Source: Sorangium aterium (GTDB lineage: Bacteria; Myxococcota_A; Polyangia; Polyangiales; Polyangiaceae). Taken from it: DNA of 64,000 nucleotides. Both the position numbers and the translations under genes were made by a program. Under the pieces are notes generated by a model. It searched no databases, was not told the DNA's origin, and was given only the letters and a program-made list of their open reading frames with translations. The stretch's first letter is position 1; each line of letters opens with the position of its first letter. Positions 15,809 to 34,623 of this stretch are shown piece by piece. The stretch spans positions 682,001 through 746,000 of the forward strand of contig NZ_JAQNDK010000002.1 of assembly GCF_028368935.1 (NCBI RefSeq), written 5' to 3'.

Positions 15809-15925
15809 CGTCCCTGACGTCGAGCGGCGCCCGAGCGGGTGCCCTGACGTCCCTGACGTCGAGCAGCGCCCGAGCGGGTGCTCTGACGTCCCCGGCGTGG
15901 AGCGACGCCCGAGCGCCGGTGCGGT
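15793..15925. repeat. 39-bp tandem repeat, about 3.4 copies, with GACGTC palindromes
   Basis: Units begin at 15793, 15832, 15871 and 15910 (partial), each starting CGAGCGGGTG. The first two units are almost identical and each holds two GACGTC palindromes 9 bp apart; the third has drifted. The array starts inside the 3' end of the DUF4336 gene, including its stop codon, and ends about 40 bp before eutA. Confidence 0.85.
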
Positions 15926-15965
15926 AGGACGGTGGCCTGGCCATGAAGATCAGGACCGTCCGGTG

Positions 15966-17378
15966 ATGGGCGCCCAGGTCACCCTGCTCGGCCTGGATTT
16001 CGGCTCCACGACGAGCTGCGCCGTGGCCGCCTCGGCGACGCTCACGCGCGCCGCGGGCAGCGGCCGGGTGGAGCTCGGTGCGCTGGAGGAGCGGTACCGA
16101 TCGGAGATGGCGCTCACGCCCTTCGCCGGCGACGCGCTCGATCTCGACGCCGCGGCGGCGCTCCTCGATCGCTGGCTCGCCGAGGCGGGCGTGGCGCCCG
16201 GGGCCCTCTTCGGCGGCGGGGCGATCATCACCGGCCTCGCCGCGCGCCGGAGCAACGCCGACGCGCTCGCGGCGCTGATCCGCGCGCGCGTCGGCGAGGC
16301 GCTGCTCGCCGTCGCCGAGGACCCTTGCCTCGAGTCCTGGGTGGCTTTCATGGGCAGCGCCGCTCCCCTGTCGCGCGCGCGCCCCGGCGAGCCCCTCGTC
16401 AACCTGGACATCGGCGGCGGCACCACGAACATCGCGCTCGGCCTGGCCGGCGAGGTCCAGCGCACCGGCTGTCTTCTCGTGGGCGCGCGGCACGTCGCGC
16501 TCGACCCGCGCTCGCGCCGCCTCCGCGCGCTCTCGCCCGAGGCCCGCGCCGCCTTCGACCACCTCGGGCTCCGCCGCGGCCCGGGCGAGGTGCTCTCGCA
16601 GGCCGAGGCCGAGGCCGTCGTCGCCTTCTATGTGGATCTGCTCGAGGCGGCGATCACGGGGCGCGCCGGCGCCTTCGACGCGCCCGCGGCAGCGCGCCAC
16701 GTGCAGGTGCCCTTCGCGCTGCCAGAGGGGATCGCGGCGCCCACCCTCACGTTCTCCGGGGGCGTTGGCGAGCTGATCTACGCCGGTCTGGCCGGGCGCC
16801 CCCTGCCCGAGCCGGCTCACCACGGCGATCTCGGCGTGGATCTCGCTCGCGCGATCCTCGCTTCACCTCGGCTGAGCGCGCGGGTGGCGACGCCGGCCAG
16901 CATGGGCCGGGCGACGGCGTATGGCCTGCTGCGCCACGCCACCCAGCTCTCCGGCGCGACGCTGTTCCTCCCGCGCCCCGGGCGCTTGCCCCTGCGCGAC
17001 CTGCCCATCCTGGCGCGCCTCTCGCCGGTCTCTTCCGACGCCGAGCTCGATCACGCCGTGGACCTCTTCCGCCGGAGCACCTGCGGCGGCTCTCTGGAGA
17101 TCGCCCTCGACGACGTCTCGGCGGCCACCCTCAAGCGCCTCGGCGCGCGCATCGCCGGAGCGCTGCGCCGGGCCGGACCGATCCCGGAGCACCCCCTCGT
17201 GCTGCTCACAGCGAAGAACGCGGGCAAGACGCTCGGGGGCTACGTGACCGGCTGGGGCGCGCTGCCGATCGACCTCCTCGTCATCGACGAGGTGCAGGCG
17301 CACGGCGCCCGGTTCGTCCAGGTCGGCCGCCTGTGCGATCAGATCCTGCCGGTCTCGTTCTACGGGATGACGCCATGA
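15966..17378 (+). CDS. eutA: Ethanolamine ammonia-lyase reactivating factor EutA
   Basis: The 470-aa protein has the actin/Hsp70-like ATPase fold of EutA, with GLDFGSTTSCAVA near the N-terminus and the second phosphate loop NLDIGGGTTNIAL around residue 160. Its length matches EutA (about 467 aa). EutA swaps damaged cobalamin out of ethanolamine ammonia-lyase at the expense of ATP. The ATG at 15966 is chosen because the conserved GLDFGST begins about nine residues later; GTG 15963 is an alternative. It is followed after 39 bp by the fused lyase gene, so the two form a minimal ethanolamine-utilisation operon. No microcompartment shell, permease or EutR gene is in the window. Confidence 0.93.
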   Translation: MGAQVTLLGLDFGSTTSCAVAASATLTRAAGSGRVELGALEERYRSEMALTPFAGDALDLDAAAALLDRWLAEAGVAPGALFGGGAIITGLAARRSNADALAALIRARVGEALLAVAEDPCLESWVAFMGSAAPLSRARPGEPLVNLDIGGGTTNIALGLAGEVQRTGCLLVGARHVALDPRSRRLRALSPEARAAFDHLGLRRGPGEVLSQAEAEAVVAFYVDLLEAAITGRAGAFDAPAAARHVQVPFALPEGIAAPTLTFSGGVGELIYAGLAGRPLPEPAHHGDLGVDLARAILASPRLSARVATPASMGRATAYGLLRHATQLSGATLFLPRPGRLPLRDLPILARLSPVSSDAELDHAVDLFRRSTCGGSLEIALDDVSAATLKRLGARIAGALRRAGPIPEHPLVLLTAKNAGKTLGGYVTGWGALPIDLLVIDEVQAHGARFVQVGRLCDQILPVSFYGMTP

Positions 17379-17417: not shown

Positions 17418-19628
17418 GTGAAGGAACCGACCCCGCTCGATCGGATCGAGGTCCCTCGCCCCCGGACCGACGTCGTCTATGCGGCCCGCCTGCCCGGCCC
17501 CGGCGGCTCGTTCCGCGGCCTGAAGCGGCTCCTCGGCGCCGCCGACTGCAGCAAGGCCGGCGATCGACACGCAGGCCTCGCGGCGAGCGACGACGCGGAA
17601 CGGGAAGCCGCGCGGGAGCTGCTCGGCGAGCTGACCCTGGAGCACCTCCACGATCACCCGCTCACCGACGCGCGGGGCGAGATCGACGCGGTGATGCGCG
17701 TCAATTACGACATCGACCGCGACGCCTTCGCCCCGATCGCCTCGCTGCGCCTCGGCGAGCTCAAGGACCACCTGCTCCGCGCGACCGGCCTGGAGGTGGC
17801 GCGCCTCGGCCGCGCCCTCACCGGCGTCATGGCCGCTGCGCTCGCCAAGCTCTGCGACGTGCACGAGCTCGTGTACCTTGCCCGCAAGATCAGCCGTCCG
17901 ACCCGCGCCCGCACGCTCCTCGGCGCCCCCGGCACGCTCGCCTCGCGCCTCCAGCCGAACCACCCCACCGACGATCTCCGGGGCATGACCCTGCTGATCT
18001 ACTGGGGCCTTTCCATCGGCGCCGGCGACGCGCTGCTCGGCGTCAACCCCGCGGCCGGCACGGTGGAGACCACCGCCGCGATCCTCCGCCACCTCGACCG
18101 CATCCGCCGCGCGGCCGGCGTCCCCACGCAGATCTGCTGCCTGTCGCACCTCAAGGTGCAGCTCGCCGCGCTCGACCAGGGCGCGCCCGTGGAGATCCTC
18201 TTTCAGAGCCTGGCAGGCACCGAGTCGTGCTGTGTCACCGAGTTCGACGTCACCGTGGATCTCATCGACGAGGGCTATCGCCGCATGGCCGCGCGCGGCC
18301 CGCTCGCAGGCCAGGCCGAGCAGTTCATGTATTTCGAGACCGGCCAGGGCAGCGAGCTCACGTACGGCAAGCACGAGGGCATCGACATGGCCACGGCCGA
18401 GGCGCTCTGTTATGGCCTCGCCCGCCGCTGGGACCCGTTCATGCTCAACAACGTCACCGGGTTCATCGGCCCGGAGACGCACCTCGACGACCGCGAGATG
18501 ATCCTCGCGAACCTCCAGGACCATTTCATGGGCAAGCTCCTCGGCGTGCCCATGGGCATGGCCCCTTGTTACACCCTCCACGCCCACGTCACGCTGGAGG
18601 GCCAGCAGATGGCGACGCAGCTCCTCACCGCGGCGGGCGCCAATTACTACATGGATGTCTGTCTCAACACCGATCGCATGCTCGCCTATTTCGACACGAG
18701 CGGGCACGATGTGCAGACCTTGCGGGAGCTCCACGGCCGCGCGCCCGGCGGCGAGTTCCTGGAGTGGGCCCTCGCGCGGGGCATCCTGGCGCGCGCGGGG
18801 GAGGGGCAGGGCGAGGCGGGCGCGATCACCCGCGGGCCGCGCTTCGGCGACGTGCGGCAGTTCTGCCCGGACGAGGCCGAGCTCGCCGAGCTGCTCGCGG
18901 CCACGCCCGCCGCCCACGGCTTCGCCACCGCCGGTCCGCGCCCGGCCAACGCGGTGAGCCGCCGCGGTCGCCGCGACGAGGCCATCGCGCGGTCGGCGCT
19001 CGCCACCGAGCTGCGCGAGGGCGAGCTGGCCCGCGTCGCCGCGTTCCGCCTCATCTCCACGACGGCGGCCAGCAAGGGAGAGCACCTCGGCTCCGCGGAC
19101 GCGGGGGCGCGCCTCTCCGCGGAGAGCGCCGCCCGGCTCGCGCCGGAGGAGGCCGAGGTGCAGATCGTTGTGTCGGACGGCCTGAGCGCCGAGGCCGTCC
19201 ACCGCAACCTCCCTGACCTGCTCCCGGTCCTGCTGGACGGCCTGGGGGCGCGCGGCGTGACCGTCGGCCAGCCGCTGCTCGCGCGTTATGGCCGGGTGAA
19301 GCTCGCGGAGGCCGTCGCCGAGCGGCTCGCGGCGCGGCTGGTCGTCGTGCTGCTCGGCGAGCGCCCGGGGAGCGGCGAGCTGGCGTCGAGCAGCCTCTCG
19401 GCCTACCTCGCCTACCGCCTCCCGCCCGGCGCGGACCAGGAGGCGGCCGCCGCCTTCAGCGGCAATCCCGTGATCGGCTTCGAGTACACGGTGATCTCGA
19501 ACATCCACGCTGGCGGGCTGCCCGCCGCGGAGGCCGGGGGCGTGATCGTCGAGAAGGCCGTGGCGGTGCTCGCCCACCGCGCGGCCGGCAACCGGCTGGA
19601 GGCGTCGCTCGCCGGCGGCGCTGCTTGA
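17418..19628 (+). CDS. eutBC: Ethanolamine ammonia-lyase, EutB-EutC fusion
   Basis: This 736-aa protein joins both lyase subunits. Residues 1 to about 465 are the EutB TIM barrel, with RLQPNHPTDD, GVNPAAG, SHLKVQLAALDQGAP and YFETGQGSE, the substrate- and cobalamin-contacting stretches. After a low-complexity linker (about 466-515), the EutC part follows with TTAASKGEHLG, VQIVVSDGLSAEAV, RYGRVKLAEAV, VVLLGERPGSGELASSS and NPVIGFEYTVISNIHAGG. The enzyme cleaves ethanolamine to acetaldehyde and ammonia using adenosylcobalamin. The GTG start at 17418 has a strong GAAGGGAGGA ribosome site. In most bacteria eutB and eutC are separate genes; there is no stop or frameshift between them here. Confidence 0.93.
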   Translation: MKEPTPLDRIEVPRPRTDVVYAARLPGPGGSFRGLKRLLGAADCSKAGDRHAGLAASDDAEREAARELLGELTLEHLHDHPLTDARGEIDAVMRVNYDIDRDAFAPIASLRLGELKDHLLRATGLEVARLGRALTGVMAAALAKLCDVHELVYLARKISRPTRARTLLGAPGTLASRLQPNHPTDDLRGMTLLIYWGLSIGAGDALLGVNPAAGTVETTAAILRHLDRIRRAAGVPTQICCLSHLKVQLAALDQGAPVEILFQSLAGTESCCVTEFDVTVDLIDEGYRRMAARGPLAGQAEQFMYFETGQGSELTYGKHEGIDMATAEALCYGLARRWDPFMLNNVTGFIGPETHLDDREMILANLQDHFMGKLLGVPMGMAPCYTLHAHVTLEGQQMATQLLTAAGANYYMDVCLNTDRMLAYFDTSGHDVQTLRELHGRAPGGEFLEWALARGILARAGEGQGEAGAITRGPRFGDVRQFCPDEAELAELLAATPAAHGFATAGPRPANAVSRRGRRDEAIARSALATELREGELARVAAFRLISTTAASKGEHLGSADAGARLSAESAARLAPEEAEVQIVVSDGLSAEAVHRNLPDLLPVLLDGLGARGVTVGQPLLARYGRVKLAEAVAERLAARLVVVLLGERPGSGELASSSLSAYLAYRLPPGADQEAAAAFSGNPVIGFEYTVISNIHAGGLPAAEAGGVIVEKAVAVLAHRAAGNRLEASLAGGAA

Positions 19629-20692: not shown

Positions 20693-21284
20693 GCTGAGCC
20701 AATCAGGTCGTGAGGTCGATCTCGGAAGCTGATGGGACGCGTGCATCGTAGTTCGCGCTGCTCGTGCACGCCCACGACCAGACCCGCCGCGCCGTGGCCT
20801 ACCTGCGCTGGAACGAGAAAGACGCCGACACGATTGCACCGTCGGTCTACAAGGACCGCGGCGACCGCGGCGCGCCGCCCAGCGACACCGCGACCGAGCC
20901 CGAGGACGTCGCCGCGCCGCCCGGCGCGGCCGCGCCGGCCGCACCGGAGGCGGCGCCCGGGGGCGCGCCGCTCAGCGACCAACCCTGCGGGTCAGAAATC
21001 CCGCCAGAAAAACCGGTCGATGACGAGCGGTCGCTGGAAACAGTAGCGATTCTCGTGGCTTCCGCCTGTTTCGCCGCCGAGGGCGGCTCTGGTGTGGCCC
21101 AACGGGGCGCCCTCCGCCGTCGCGTCGCCCGCGGTGAAGGGCCCGCGGCATCACCGATCGGGGTCGGCGCCTGGCCTGGCGGCGCAGCGCCGCGGGATTC
21201 TCCTTCGCTCGCCGCCCTGTTGTCGGGCCCCTCGATGCGCTGCCGCCTGTTTCGGGATCGTGCCTGCGTGCCCGCACTCTGCCA
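20693..21284. other. Degenerate region with small gene remnants
   Basis: No intact gene. The minus strand at 20880-20960 resembles, with indels, a piece of the methyltransferase remnant near 48340-48405 (shared GCCCAGCGACAC and ACGTCGCCGCGCC). Bases 20993-21052 match 33966-34032, a repeat that also interrupts the hydrolase there. The open frame on the plus strand has no protein-like composition. Confidence 0.5.
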
Positions 21285-21343
21285 GCCCAACGTTGAATTG
21301 ACCTGCGGCGCGAAGCGCCGTCAGGTCCAATTCTGTGTTGGGC
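21285..21343 (+). other. attC-like integron recombination site (59-base element)
   Basis: The outer boxes are GCCCAAC (21285-21291, fits RYYYAAC) and GTTGGGC (21337-21343, fits GTTRRRY), exactly complementary. Inside them lie a 3-nt unpaired spacer, GAATTG/CAATTC, ACCTG/CAGGT and CGGCGC/GCGCCG arms, and a GAA tip. The 3' arm carries two extra unpaired bases (C and T), as the extrahelical bases of attC sites do. Total length is 59 bp. No integrase gene lies in the window. Confidence 0.65.
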
Positions 21344-21538
21344 GGTGCCTGGTCGCGCATCATGGGATCAGACATCCCAGAGCCGCCTCTTGCCGGGCTG
21401 AGAGCCGCCGCTCGCCGCAGCAGCGGTCGTGGTCGCGCCGTACCTCTCCGCCATGGCGCCGCCAGGTCCCGCCGGCTTTCGTCCCGCAGAATTCCCCGCG
21501 GAGCACGAGCGGCCCGTGTTTCGCTCGCAGCCGCCGGG

Positions 21539-23182
21539 ATGCTCACCCAAGCGGAGTCTCGGCCGCTGTCGGCGCGTCCAAGGACCTCGCGGCCAGCGCC
21601 GCACGCCTACGCGCCTCGCGAACCGCATCAGACCGTGTTGTATGGCCTTGTTCAGGAGCACCTCGCGACCTACGTCGCGCACGCAGCGCCCACGTACGCG
21701 GCCCCGCTCCCGAAGTACGTTGTCGCCGCCTTCGATGGCTACCTCGCCTGTGGCGATCTCGCGCGAGGTTTCATCCGATGTCACTGCGATGGCTGCGGTC
21801 ACGATGTGCTCGTCGCCTTCTCATGCAAGCTCCGCGGCCCCTGCCCCAGCTGCGCCTCGCGCCGGATGTGCAATGAGGCGGCGACGCTCGTCGATCGTAT
21901 CTTGCCCAACGTGCCCGTCAGGCAGTGGGTCATGTCGCTTCCGTTTGAGCTGCGTGCGCTTGCGGCCAAAAGGTCCGACGTCCTCGCGGCGATGGAGCGC
22001 ATCTTCGCGGAGGAGATCGCCCGCGTGACCACGCGGCTCGCGAGCATCGCCGGCGCACGGACGGGCTCGGTCGGGTTCCCTCAGAGATTCGGCTCGAGCT
22101 TGAACGTTCACGTCCATTTTCACACGCTGGCAATCGACGGCGTTTTCGAGAAGACCGCCATGGGCGTGCGCTTCCGCGATGCGCCGCCGCCTTCAAAGGA
22201 CGATGTCAGCGAGGTGGCGCGACGGGTGCGCGAGCGTGCGCTTCTTTGGCTACGGCGCCGCGGCTACCTTGACGAGCGCGCGGCCGAGGAGCGCAGCAAC
22301 GAGACCATCGAGCCCTCCGCGCTCGATGCGTGTACCCAGCTCGCACTCGCAGGTGGAGCGTATCTTGCGCGGCCTTTCGAGCACAAGGACAGTCCCGACG
22401 CGGCTTTCGAGCGCCGAGAGCGACGCTTCTCCGCGGCGTGCGACGGGTTCGACGTGCATTGCGCGGTGCGCATCGCAGCGGATGACGATCAGGGGCGCGA
22501 GAGGCTCGTGCGGTACTGCTCCCGCCCGACCTTCGCACTCGATCGAATCGAGCTCCTGCCCGATGGGCGTATAGCGTACTTGCTGAAGACACCTCGGCGG
22601 GGACGCACTCACCGCGTCATGAGTCCAATGGAGTTCATGGCCCGGCTCGCGGCTTTGATTCCTCCGCCGAAGATCCCGCTTGTGAGATACCATGGCGTGT
22701 TCGCGCCTCGCTCGTCGTGGCGCTCTCTCGTGACACCCAAACCTCCGGCCCGCGCCGCGAAGTCTGAGCCGTGCGCGGGGCACGCGCCTCTGCCCGCCGC
22801 GCCCGCGCCCGCATCGCCCGCGCCCGCGTCGCCGTGCCCTCCGCCGGCGCTCTCAGCGAGGTCGCTCGCGCATGCCGAGCCCACGGTGCGAGTTGAGCCG
22901 ACCCTGATCTCGGTCTTGCACTGGGGGCGGCTGCTCGAAGGGGAGTTGTTCGCAACGTCGCGCTACGTCGAGTGGGCCGTGCTCATGAAGCGTTCGTTCG
23001 GTTTCGATGCGCTCCGCTGCCCGAGATGCGAACGGAGGATGCGCGTGCTTTCCACGATCACCGACTCAGCGGTGGTGCGCCGCATCCTCGATCATCTGAA
23101 CTTGCCCTCGCAGCCCCGAACGGCAGCACCCGCGCGCGATCCAACGTGGGAACCGATGGCGTTCGGGTTCGACGCGGCGTAG
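21539..23182 (+). CDS. IS91-family transposase (HUH rolling-circle type)
   Basis: The 547-aa protein has an N-terminal zinc-binding domain (RCHCDGCGHDVLVAFSC, CPSCASRRMCNEAA), the HUH motif in NVHVHFHTLAIDGVF, and a central region with Tyr candidates in RYCSRPTFALDRIE. The C-terminal zinc-like domain has FDALRCPRCERRMRV. This is the layout of IS91/IS801 transposases, which nick one strand and move by rolling-circle replication. An in-frame upstream start at 21335 exists but adds a non-conserved Arg-rich leader. The gene looks intact, so the element may be active. A Pro/Ala-rich insert sits before the C-terminal domain (about residues 425-450). Confidence 0.9.
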   Translation: MLTQAESRPLSARPRTSRPAPHAYAPREPHQTVLYGLVQEHLATYVAHAAPTYAAPLPKYVVAAFDGYLACGDLARGFIRCHCDGCGHDVLVAFSCKLRGPCPSCASRRMCNEAATLVDRILPNVPVRQWVMSLPFELRALAAKRSDVLAAMERIFAEEIARVTTRLASIAGARTGSVGFPQRFGSSLNVHVHFHTLAIDGVFEKTAMGVRFRDAPPPSKDDVSEVARRVRERALLWLRRRGYLDERAAEERSNETIEPSALDACTQLALAGGAYLARPFEHKDSPDAAFERRERRFSAACDGFDVHCAVRIAADDDQGRERLVRYCSRPTFALDRIELLPDGRIAYLLKTPRRGRTHRVMSPMEFMARLAALIPPPKIPLVRYHGVFAPRSSWRSLVTPKPPARAAKSEPCAGHAPLPAAPAPASPAPASPCPPPALSARSLAHAEPTVRVEPTLISVLHWGRLLEGELFATSRYVEWAVLMKRSFGFDALRCPRCERRMRVLSTITDSAVVRRILDHLNLPSQPRTAAPARDPTWEPMAFGFDAA

Positions 23183-23369
23183 GTGGGCACCCGGCCCGAG
23201 CCCGTCATGGCGAACGCACGTCGCGGTCGTCGAGCCAGAGCTGCACCCAATGCACGGCGCGCGGGCCCTGCGACGGGGCGAGCGGGTGTTTGATGCGCGA
23301 TAGACGGCTCGCCCGGCGCCGTTCCCGCGGGGCTTGACACAGGCGAGAGCTCTATCGTTTCCTATCCGC
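23142..23369 (+). repeat. IS91 3' terminus, copy 1 (with the intact element)
   Basis: These 228 bp contain the last 13 codons of the transposase and the downstream non-coding end. They match 24628-24855 with one visible difference (A at 23341, G at 24827). The segment includes TTGACA at 23334 pointing outward and a GC-rich palindrome-rich tail. Confidence 0.9.
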
Positions 23370-23917: not shown

Positions 23918-24219
23918 GCCGCGTTCACTCTACAGCCTGCGGGCACGACGCCGAGCTGAGGACGCCGAGCTGAGCAGCGGAGTTGACGCCACACGGAAGA
24001 TTGCCCGATTGAACTCAAGATTCCGCTCAGCTTCAACAGCGAACGGGATACCCCCCCTTAGCAATCGACGTCCGCACTTGCGTCTGGGACATTCTCACAA
24101 TCAATGGCGGAATTGACGGTAAATAGTATTTGCAAACGGAATGCGTCGGCATAGAGTCTACTGAGGTCGTCCGGAGACGTCCTAGTGCAGTGGTCGCATC
24201 CGAACAAGAAAGGGAACGT

Positions 24220-24620
24220 ATGTCGATCAAAGCAAAGCAGAGCGACACGGACCTCATCAAGGGCATGATTGGAAATTGGAGCGCCGTCGATGGGAGACCC
24301 AGTGAAACATTTAAACATATCTCGGAGCTTCTTGGCGACGGGACGTTTAGGGCCCATGGGACTCATGAGAAGGACGGAAAGATCAGGTTTTTGTAAACCA
24401 TGGCGTCTGGTCGATCGATAACGGGGCACTCACTTATACCATCCAGGAATCGAACATTCCCGAGTGGCGTGGCCTCATGGTAAACCAGGATGTGGAGGCT
24501 TTGGGCGGGAGCAAATTAAACATTCGGAGCGCCAGCGGAGTCTTAGTCCAGGCCCAGTCCGTCATATGGCGTAGCGACGCCGAACGTATGCACCTTTTGG
24601 CGGGCGTACTGAACGCCTAA
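24220..24620 (+). pseudogene. Frameshifted gene-cassette-like ORF, unknown function
   Basis: The ATG at 24220 has an AAAGGG ribosome site. The frame reads MSIKAKQSDTDLIKGMIGNW and on to KDGKIRF, then a shift near 24390 in a T-run moves it to VNHGVWSIDNGALTYTIQES through LLAGVLNA, ending TAA at 24618-24620. Joined, it would be about 132 aa, resembling a small lipocalin-like or beta-barrel protein; the family was not recognised. Base composition and codon use are clearly more AT-rich than neighbours, a sign of transfer. The stop codon overlaps GCCTAAC, the first box of an attC site, exactly as in integron cassettes. Confidence 0.65.
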
Positions 24621-24627
24621 CACCAAT
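24615..24627 (+). other. Truncated attC site
   Basis: GCCTAAC fits the RYYYAAC outer box and overlaps the stop of the cassette-like gene. After six more bases the sequence is replaced by the second IS91 terminus at 24628, so the rest of the site is lost. Confidence 0.5.
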
Positions 24628-24855
24628 CAACGTGGGAACCGATGGCGTTCGGGTTCGACGCGGCGTAGGTGGGCACCCGGCCCGAGCCCGTCATGGCGAA
24701 CGCACGTCGCGGTCGTCGAGCCAGAGCTGCACCCAATGCACGGCGCGCGGGCCCTGCGACGGGGCGAGCGGGTGTTTGATGCGCGATAGACGGCTCGCCC
24801 GGCGCCGTTCCCGCGGGGCTTGACACGGGCGAGAGCTCTATCGTTTCCTATCCGC
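24628..24855 (+). repeat. IS91 3' terminus, copy 2 (without a transposase)
   Basis: This is a solo copy of the terminus at 23142-23369. Its left junction falls inside the last codons of the transposase gene and cuts an attC-like site. Its right junction abuts the 5' end of the Ser/Thr kinase gene. TTGACA at 24820 points into the kinase gene. Confidence 0.88.
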
Positions 24856-27800
24856 ATCGCCGGCGACCTGTTGGCGCAGCGGTACTTCAGCGAACACGCC
24901 GCGGCACAGGGCGGGATGGCACGGGTCTACCGCGCCCTCGATCGGCACACGGGCAAGCCGGTGGCGGAGAAGGTGCTCAACGCCGATCATGTCGACGCGC
25001 CGCGCTTCCGGCGCGAGGCCGCGCTCTTGGCCGAGCTGCTCGACCCGCGCATCGTCCGCTACGTCGACCACGGCGAGACGGCCGCCGGGGAGCCGTATTT
25101 GGTTATGGAGTGGCTCGACGGCGAGGACCTCGCCTCCCGGCTCAGGCGCGGGCCGGCGCTCGGCGTGGCGGGGAGCGTGCGCCTCGCGTGCCGCGCCGCC
25201 GGGGCGCTGGGCATCGCGCACGCCCGCGGCGTCGTGCACAGGGACGTCAAGCCGGGCAACCTCTTCCTGGTCAGCGGTCGCTCCGAGGAGGTGAAGGTCA
25301 TCGACTTCGGCATCGCGCTCGTCACCACGGACCCGCAGCGGATGACTCGCACCGGCGTCGCGCTGGGCACGCTCGGGTACATGGCGCCCGAGCAGGTGCG
25401 TGGCGAGCGCGCCCTCTGCCCGCGGGTCGACGTCTTCGCGCTCGGCTGCGTCCTCTTCGAGTGCCTCACCGGGCGCCCGCCGTTCCCCGGCGATCTCGGC
25501 CTCTCGATCCTGGCCCGCATCCTGGTCGAGCAGGCGCCCCGCGTGGCGGCCATCGCCCCGGGGATCCCGCCGGCGCTCGATGATCTCGTGGCGCGCATGC
25601 TCGCCAAGGACGCCGCCGAGCGCCCGCGCGACGGACGGGAGGTGGCCGAGGCGCTCGCCGCGCTCGCCGATGTCGAGGCCGCGCCGGCGCGGACGGCGCC
25701 GGGCGCGGCCCTCACCCACGGGGAGCAGCGGGTGGTCTGCGTGCTGCTCGTCGAGCCGCGAACGGCGCCCACCGCCGACGTGAGCGCGCCGACGGTCCCC
25801 ATGTCGAGCGAGCCCCGGGAGGCCGCGCCCCTCGCGGCCCTGGCCGAAGCGCACGGGGTGCGGCTCCACCCGGTCGCGGGCGGCGCGCTGGTCAGCACCC
25901 TCGCGCGGAGCAGCGCGGCCACGGATCAAGCCGCCCGCGCCGCCCGCTTCGCCCTCTCGCTGCGGGCAGCGCTGCCTCTGTCGCGCATCGTCCTGTGCAC
26001 CGGCCAGTGCGCGGTCGGCGACCGGAGCCCGACCGGGGAGGTCATCGATCGGGCCGCGCGCCTCCTCACCCGCGCCCGGACGGGGGAGGCCGGCGCGCTC
26101 CTCCCGGTGCTCCTCGACGATCCCACGGCGGCGCTCCTCGCCGGCCATTTCGATACCCGCCCCGGTCCGCTCGCGATCGAGCTCCATGACGAGCGCGCGC
26201 CGGTCGACACCGCGCGCACGGTGCTCGGCCGGGCCACCCCCTTCGTCGGCCGCGAGCGGGAGCTCGCAATGCTCGAGGCCATCGTCGCCGAGGCGCGTTC
26301 CGAGGAGACGGTGCGCGCCGTGCTCGTGACGGCCCCCCCCCTGGGGCGGGCAAGTCGCGCCTCCGCCGCGAGCTCTCGCGGCGGCTCCACGCCCGCGGCG
26401 AACCGCACGAGATCTGGCTCGGCCGCGGCGATCCCATGCGCGCCGGCGCGCCCTTGGCGATGCTCGCCGACGCCATCCGGAACGTTGCGGAGCTCTCGCG
26501 CGAGGAGCCGCTCGAGGCGCGCCGGCGCCGGCTCCTCGCCCGCGTGTCCCGGAGGATCGCGCCCGGGGACGCGCGCCGCGTCGCGGAGTTCCTCGGCGAG
26601 GTGACGGACGTGCCCTTCCCGCCGAGCGTGGAGCTCGCCGCGGCGCGCGGCGATCCGCAGCTCATGAACGACCAGGTGACGCGCGCCTTCCGGGATCTGC
26701 TCGCGGCCGAGACCGAGGCGGCGCTGGTGCTGCTCGTCCTCGAGGACCTGCACTGGGGCGACCTGCCGAGCGTGAAGCTCGTCGACGCCATCCTCCGCGG
26801 CCTTTCCGATCGCCCGCTCGTGGTCCTCGCGCTCGCCCGGCCCGAGATCGCCGAGCGGTACCCGCGCCTGTGGTCCGAGCGGGCCCTCGTGGAGGTGCGC
26901 CTCGGGGAGCTGCCGCGGCGGGCCGGCGAGCGGCTGGTGCGCGCGGTGGCCGGCGGCGGGATCTCGGACGAGGCCGTCGCCCGTATCGTGGTGCGGGCGG
27001 CGGGCAACGTGCTCTACCTGGAGGAGCTCGTCCGGGCCGAGCTGAGCGGCCGGGGCGACGTCCTGCCGGAGACGGTGCTCGCCATGGTGCAGGCGCGGCT
27101 CTCGGCCTTCGGCGACGAGGCCCGCCGCGCCCTGCGCGCCGCGAGCGTCTTCGGCCTGGAGTTCCGGATCCCGGCGGTGGCCGCGCTGCTCGGCGCGCGC
27201 GTCGAGGACGTCGCCGCCCGCCTCGACGAGCTCTGCGAGCGCGAGGTCGTCCTTCGCCTGGGCCACGGCCAGGGCGAGGCCCACTTCGCCTTCGGCCACG
27301 CGCTCTTCCGCGAGGCCGCCTACGCCTCGCTCACGCCCGCAGATCGCGCGCTCGGCCACCGCCTGGCTGCTCTCGGCCGGGGAGCGCGACGCCCTTGTCC
27401 TGGCGGAGCACTACGAGCGGGGCGAGCTCCTCGCCGAGGCGGCTCGCTGTTATCGCCTCGCGGCCGAGCAGGCCTTCCGCGCGGGCGACCACGCCACGGC
27501 CCTCCTGCGCGCCGAGCGGGGCGTCGCGTGCGGCGCTGCCGGCGAGGATCTCGGGGCGCTGCGCTGCGTGCAGGCCGAGGTCCACGAGGTGCGGGACGAG
27601 CTCGCCGCCGCCGAGGTGCGCGCGCTCGAGGCCGTCGAGCTCCTCGCCGAGGGGACGGTGCTCTGGCTGCACGCCGCCGGGGTGCTGATCCAGGTCCGCA
27701 GCCTCGCTGGCCGCTTCAGCGACCTGATCGCCTGGCTCGATCGGCTCGGGCGCCGCGCGCCCGTGGACCGCGAGGCGGCCGAGGCGCTGGCGCGCGCGCT

Positions 27801-33901: not shown

Positions 33902-34623
33902 CTGCGATCCGTCATCACGCCCTCCCAAAATCCCGGGGCATCCGACGGATCGCGACGGTTCGCCCCCGCGGAATCGTCCCGCCAGAGAAACCGGTGGATG
34001 ACGAGCGGTCGCCGGAAACAGTAGCAATTGGGATAGCTATGCGCCGCCGCCAGCCGCTCCGGATGGACGGCGGCGTAGCGCCAGGTTCCGCAGCCACCCA
34101 TGCTCGGACCGGTGAGATAGACGCGGTCGCGATCGATGTCGTGTGTAGCGAGCAGGTAGTCGAGGAGGGCGTCGATCTTGGCCGCGTCCCATTCGCCGGG
34201 CGATTGCGGCGCCGCGATCAGCACGCCCGCGTCGACGAGCGGAGACGACGAGCCGAGCAGGCGCGCACGCGCCACATAACGCAGCGGCGGCAGGCGGTGG
34301 ATGATGGAGCGCGGGTGACTGCCGTCACCGCGGCTGCTCCCGCCGTGCAGCACGAGCAGGAGCGGGCGCGGGCGCGGCCCCGGGTCCGGCGGCACGTACT
34401 CGACATATCCGTAGGGCGACGCCGTCGACCCGGGGGGATGCGCCTCCATCATCAGGGCAGGGATCACGTAGCGCAGCGCGAGCAGCACGAGCCCCGTCGC
34501 CGCGACGACGGCCTGCGCAGCCCTCCTCGCGCGGCGAGCCCAACGCGGTCCTGACACGCCGCCGAGCCTACCGTGCGCCGAGCATGGCGTCCATGAGGGG
34601 GCCGCGACGTTCGTGGGCAGCAC
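33895..34623 (-). pseudogene. Alpha/beta hydrolase (PHB depolymerase/esterase-like), C-terminus lost
   Basis: The frame has a membrane-anchor-like N-terminus (AVVAATGLVLLALRYVIPAL), the oxyanion strand LLLVLHGGSS, and the nucleophile elbow YLTGPSMGGCGTWRYA in the context DIDRDRVYLTG. This is typical of feruloyl esterase/PHB-depolymerase-like hydrolases. About 20 residues after the elbow, homology stops: the expected catalytic Asp and His are absent. The tail (CYCFRRPLVIHRFLWRDD) is encoded by a repeat also found at 20993-21052. The stop codon comes from the IS110 flank. The GTG at 34623 is the first start; later GTGs are possible. Probably inactive. Confidence 0.65.

Follow-up and report, generated by a model that had tools for sequence, protein, structure and literature searches.

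The window analysed here is a stretch of 64,000 nucleotides from the Sorangium aterium genome. It contains a 59-bp hairpin that lies inside a 2.4-kb ISCR/IS91-like element (about 20999-23369), between the left end of the element and its transposase gene (Table 1). The hairpin is situated ~290 bp inside the left end and is opposite in direction to the transposase gene, the likely start of which lies ~200 bp further on. The real start of the transposase is probably at about 21540. Pfam matches to Y2_Tnp (PF04986, 2.6e-24) and Zn_Tnp_IS91 (PF14319, 4e-17), both above gathering scores, identify a Y2 HUH transposase with an N-terminal zinc-binding domain, as is expected of ISCR/IS91 elements. On the 3' side of the gene, where the element ends, there is an oriIS motif, GGGGCTTG...TTCCTAT, common to ISCR1 and an ISCR3-like element. 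The closest NCBIfam model was ISCR_clade_Ia (271 bits, under its cut-off of 925), and the IS91 equivalog scored 85.8 bits (cut-off 125). The assignment to ISCR is based on the Pfam domains and the oriIS motif; with NCBIfam scores under the curated cut-offs, the transposase is related to ISCR and is not a named ISCR. The boundaries of the element were fixed by comparison with other copies, and the left boundary of the left-end segment varies with the copy compared, falling at 20987 or 20999. A second copy of the element together with its attC is located at C1:2325339-2327534; it is 98-99% identical, with a rearranged transposase. The two genomic copies have different right flanks, which is consistent with rolling-circle transposition.

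Table 1. Features of the element in the window, and attC sites next to left-end copies elsewhere in Sorangium
Feature	Position	Strand or orientation	Evidence or remark
attC site, 59 nt	21285..21343	minus	fold; R1 55.5 bits, R2 62.2 bits
R box	21285..21291	plus	in minus orientation, TTGGGC is the left-end segment's and G the attC's; left-end homology of other copies ends here
Outer R box, cassette side	21337..21343	plus	GTTGGGC on plus, GCCCAAC on minus
Stretch between the two extrahelical bases T21321 and C21327	21321..21327	plus	bottom strand
Left-end (terIS-side) segment, ~290 bp	20999..21290	plus	copies in Sorangium aterium genome, So0157-2 and So ceGT47
ISCR/IS91-like HUH transposase ORF, 615 codons as listed	21335..23182	plus	Pfam and NCBIfam
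Core-like ATCCAACG in transposase 3' end	23139..23146	plus	left/right-end fusion point in So0157-2; cut point of second right end
Right end, ISCR-type oriIS (GGGGCTTG...TTTCCTATCCGC)	23183..23369	plus	three copies diverge directly after
Second right-end copy, cut at core-like CAACG	24628..24855	plus	sequence comparison
Fragment of another left end	33977..34029	plus	sequence comparison
Left-end attC, Sorangium aterium	C1:2340346-2340407	same orientation	R2 51.6 bits
Left-end attC, So0157-2	locus L080	same orientation	R2 37.0 bits
Left-end attC, So0157-2	locus L081	same orientation	R2 45.6 bits
Left-end attC, So ceGT47	locus L083	same orientation	R2 62.2 bits

Two other loci in the window were also recorded. 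An ORF of 736 codons (17418-19628) matches EutB and EutC and is a natural fusion of both ethanolamine ammonia-lyase subunits; it is adjoined by an EutA-like gene at 15897-17378. A Ser/Thr kinase ORF (24820-26604) has its listed start inside the second ISCR-type right end, which contains a promoter-like sequence, TTGACA...TATCGT, directed into the kinase gene.

The earlier note, made from the sequence alone, described the hairpin as matching an integron attC, with outer boxes that are exactly complementary and one arm that carries two extrahelical bases, and this description holds. The site reads, on the plus strand, GCCCAAC-GTT-GAATTG-ACCTG-CGGCGC-GAA-GCGCCG-T-CAGGT-C-CAATTC-TGT-GTTGGGC. The outer RYYYAAC and GTTRRRY boxes are complementary at 7/7 positions, and the extrahelical T (21321) and C (21327) are both on the same arm of the plus strand, giving the strand polarity of an attC. 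Folding of the site region gave z scores of -5.15 (RNA) and -5.08 (DNA), and none of 200 shuffles was equally stable. When the window was scanned for R boxes that are complementary and enclose a long symmetric stem, this site was the sole match, and the 13.5-Mb genome has 5 occurrences of the pattern GCCCAAC-N30-60-GTTGGGC, compared with 1 for the reversed control. The note had proposed a covariance-model search, which was carried out with two models made for the present analysis and distinct from IntegronFinder's own attC model. R1 was built from 9 class 1 integron attC sites on plasmids and contains nothing from the Sorangium aterium genome, and R2 is the R1 set plus 4 attCs adjoining intI in Sorangium relatives. 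R1 recognised the site on the minus strand with E = 3.2e-12, 39 bits above the score of the plus strand (16.3 bits), and the next-best match anywhere in the window reached 12.8 bits with filters off. The background-level score that the note had named as refuting was thus not seen. No relevant match was found in Rfam, and neither R1 nor R2 detected an attC at the outer boundary of the left end in the window. On its sequence and predicted fold, 21285-21343 is a true attC with a cassette orientation of minus, so that the plus strand would be the recombinogenic bottom strand. The crossover is predicted between 21290 and 21291, and the site could probably fold and be used by an integrase supplied in trans. 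The first extrahelical base on the top strand is G at this site, as in nearly all Sorangium attCs, and mostly C in the class 1 set.

The site is not a remnant of the CALIN type, as had been suggested, because the attC stands alone and no cassette gene can be recognised next to it. By the current IntegronFinder 2.0 default, a CALIN consists of at least 2 clustered attC sites without intI (PMC9024848), and scans with R1 and R2 both found one attC in the window. The only reading frame beside it is a 144-aa ORF that overlaps the transposase in reverse. Genes in the same orientation precede the other left-end attCs, but not the attC in the window. It stands outside any cassette array, and its cassette gene is gone. 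Elsewhere in the window, a low-GC stretch (~52%) at 24120-24626 contains a plus-strand reading frame that is cassette-like but frameshifted. Its stop codon falls within GCCTAAC, an R-box-like 7-mer, with the truncated second right end ~9 bp further on. This stretch is possibly a decayed cassette that has lost its attC hairpin.

No intI was found in the 64-kb window, as the note had stated, but the genome (13.47 Mb) does have an integron integrase homologue on another contig, at C4:1124454-1125395 (376 bits, above the curated cut-off). This resident intI has one in-frame TGA, so the attC in the window is an orphan in its own genome. Three attCs (C4:1127786, 1128881 and 1130692) are neighbours of intI, lying past its 5' end on the other strand, and this layout at C4:1124-1131 kb (L023/L024) is the usual one for integrons. 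Others are scattered at C2:2486696/2488030, C5:1034591/1049242, C1:3198860, C1:2500201 and C4:1465415/1466589; the left-end segment was absent from the loci tested among them. The integrase gene is intact in three relatives (about 407 bits). The view that myxobacterial chromosomes are no usual home for attC sites was not borne out in the family: intI exceeded the NCBIfam cut-off in 28/108 family genomes and attC matches were present in 19/108. The two co-occur, with intI in 12/19 attC-positive and 17/89 attC-negative genomes (Fisher P = 2.6e-4). Integrons are common in the family of Sorangium, and the myxobacteria there are a normal home for them. Presence of attCs in Myxococcota genomes has been mentioned before (PMC9668308). 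A literature text search, of incomplete coverage, found no paper on integrons in Sorangium.

Copies of the left end were sought across the family genomes with 21150-21400 as query. Besides Sorangium aterium, they were found in the relatives Sorangium cellulosum So0157-2 (14,782,125 bp) and So ceGT47 (11,261,481 bp), and in all three genomes homology between copies stops at the R box. The ~290-bp segment abuts five different attCs, in a single orientation: the site in the window and the four others listed in Table 1. At L081, a VOC family gene has its stop codon directly against the attC, and at L083 a 73-aa ORF terminates inside the attC, both as in ordinary cassettes; at C1:2340346 a gene with a RibD_C domain lies 125 bp before the attC. 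L080 is weak under the class-1-only model (21.2 bits) and its outer R boxes have a one-base mismatch. A junction with TTGGGC contributed by the left-end segment and GTCCAAC by the cassette would be expected to show such a mismatch. In 7/8 left-end copies, homology runs out no more than 2 bp from the crossover. The chance estimate for these junctions is rough, since it treats the copies as independent and takes break points to be spread evenly over ~130 bp. The single copy that ends away from the core is at So0157-2 14300668. A copy at C1:2337821 ends at the core with no attC beyond, and the junction at So0157-2 8844246 (L078) resembles a degenerate attC that the covariance model did not detect and was left out of the five. 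Carriage of an attC by the transposon was seen in two copies, the element in the window and C1:2325339-2327534. No right end was detected within about 10 kb of the attC-carrying left ends of So0157-2 and So ceGT47. A second left-end family is alike in just the outer ~160 bp, beyond which its inner sequence (GCATCACCGGTCCCACCGTACGG...) is different and likewise repeated. It was found at L006 (7513), L083 (3575), L086 (5069), L088, L089 and L092; it has no core site and was set aside.

At L082 in So0157-2, present as two copies in tandem, the core of the left-end segment is the point of fusion with the 3' end of the transposase and the right end, and both the attC and the remaining transposase are missing between the ends. 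The second right end in the window is cut at the core-like CAACG, and other partial right ends are cut elsewhere. These two cases are suggestive of possible empty forms.

The earlier note was right about the attC but its account of the context was incomplete, since the ISCR/IS91-like element had gone unnoticed. We consider it likely, taking the parts jointly, that the site is a real attC from the cassette pool of a chromosomal integron, that it is cargo of the ISCR/IS91-like transposon, and that the left-end junctions were made by an integrase. The Sorangium chromosomal integron would be the most likely origin of the attC. The integron integrase would have joined cassettes to the left-end segment at the core site G^TTGGGC, and the cassette gene may afterwards have been lost or replaced by the transposase side. 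ISCR-type rolling-circle copying by the transposase would then have multiplied one junction with its attC. We infer joining by integrase because five different attCs adjoin one and the same segment and homology breaks off at the crossover point; a pattern left by integrase is the simplest reading of such recurrent junctions. The junctions suggest repeated exchange of pieces between the integron and this transposon family.

A more passive history is that the element inserted by an attC in an array, that ordinary recombination or one-ended transposition led to capture of this attC, and that the other junctions reflect shared ancestry of the segment and not repeated action of integrase at a site borne by the ISCR-like element. 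The window copy and C1:2325339 are indeed plain copies of one another. The segment also begins with TTGGGC-yGGCAGAG, which resembles ordinary cassette starts in the genus, so it may itself once have been the start of a cassette into which the element inserted. However, five unrelated attCs are joined at the same base and in the same orientation, whereas shared ancestry alone would have kept the same attC, and we regard this history as unlikely. The hairpin might instead be a working part of the transposon, either terIS or a regulatory structure, that merely looks like an attC; its place is close to the end of an IS91/ISCR-type element, and secondary structures form at such ends (PMC13393415). 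This is very improbable, given that the hairpin, unlike the R box, changes in sequence from one left-end copy to another, that R1, built from unrelated class 1 attCs, detects it on just one strand, and that similar sites in the genome adjoin intI or stand far from the element. The genome is GC-rich and hairpins are many, and a chance or REP-like hairpin or a transcription terminator might be supposed on that ground. The score of the independent model (E = 3e-12, with a runner-up of 12.8 bits in 64 kb) and the restriction of attC matches to few family genomes, where they co-occur with intI (P = 2.6e-4), effectively refute such explanations.

IS1111-attC elements and group IIC-attC introns insert into attC sites and use other enzymes. 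They are likewise mobile elements found at attC sites, but the element in Sorangium has a Y2/HUH-type enzyme and carries an intact attC inside it; an insertion of either kind is ruled out. The site is like the attCs of integrons and CALINs in its R boxes, extrahelical bases, strand polarity and length, but is single, lacks a cassette gene and lies inside a transposon (PMC9024848). ISCR1 is located beyond the 3'-conserved segment (3'-CS) of class 1 integrons (PMC13393415). Common to that arrangement and the one in Sorangium is an ISCR-associated segment that stays constant and is distal (R' side) to cassettes that vary. ISCR1 lies beyond qacEdelta1-sul1, whereas the Sorangium left-end segment begins directly at the attC crossover. 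The first report of sul4 described it with an ISCR element in an integron (PMC5732528). In the ISCR28 modules that carry sul4, attC sites are reported where the ISCR28 gene ends or immediately behind it, with integrases nearby, and the hosts include Myxococcota (PMC12772301). An ISCR-type transposase gene with a directly adjoining attC and integrases nearby is common to both systems. In Sorangium, however, the attC lies between left end and transposase in the opposite orientation, a resistance gene is absent, and several attCs, each different, adjoin the left-end segment. What is new relative to these precedents is the attC on the left-end side, its opposite orientation and the several attCs on one segment.

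The left-end segment might also be a built-in integron capture site, at which the integrase loads cassettes at the core and the transposon scatters them; we put this forward tentatively. If this were true, Sorangium would have a rolling-circle, transposon-borne cassette platform, and the L082 fusion and the cut right end in the window would be empty or differently loaded forms of it.

How ISCR elements such as ISCR1 and ISCR28 became tied to integrons is an old question. Our data indicate that integrons are a regular feature of large-genome myxobacteria, and provide several natural examples of cassette attCs that meet an ISCR-type element at the integrase crossover point. The question of how ISCR elements and integrons came together becomes testable in a non-clinical soil lineage that has several such junctions, integrases that are intact and possible empty forms.
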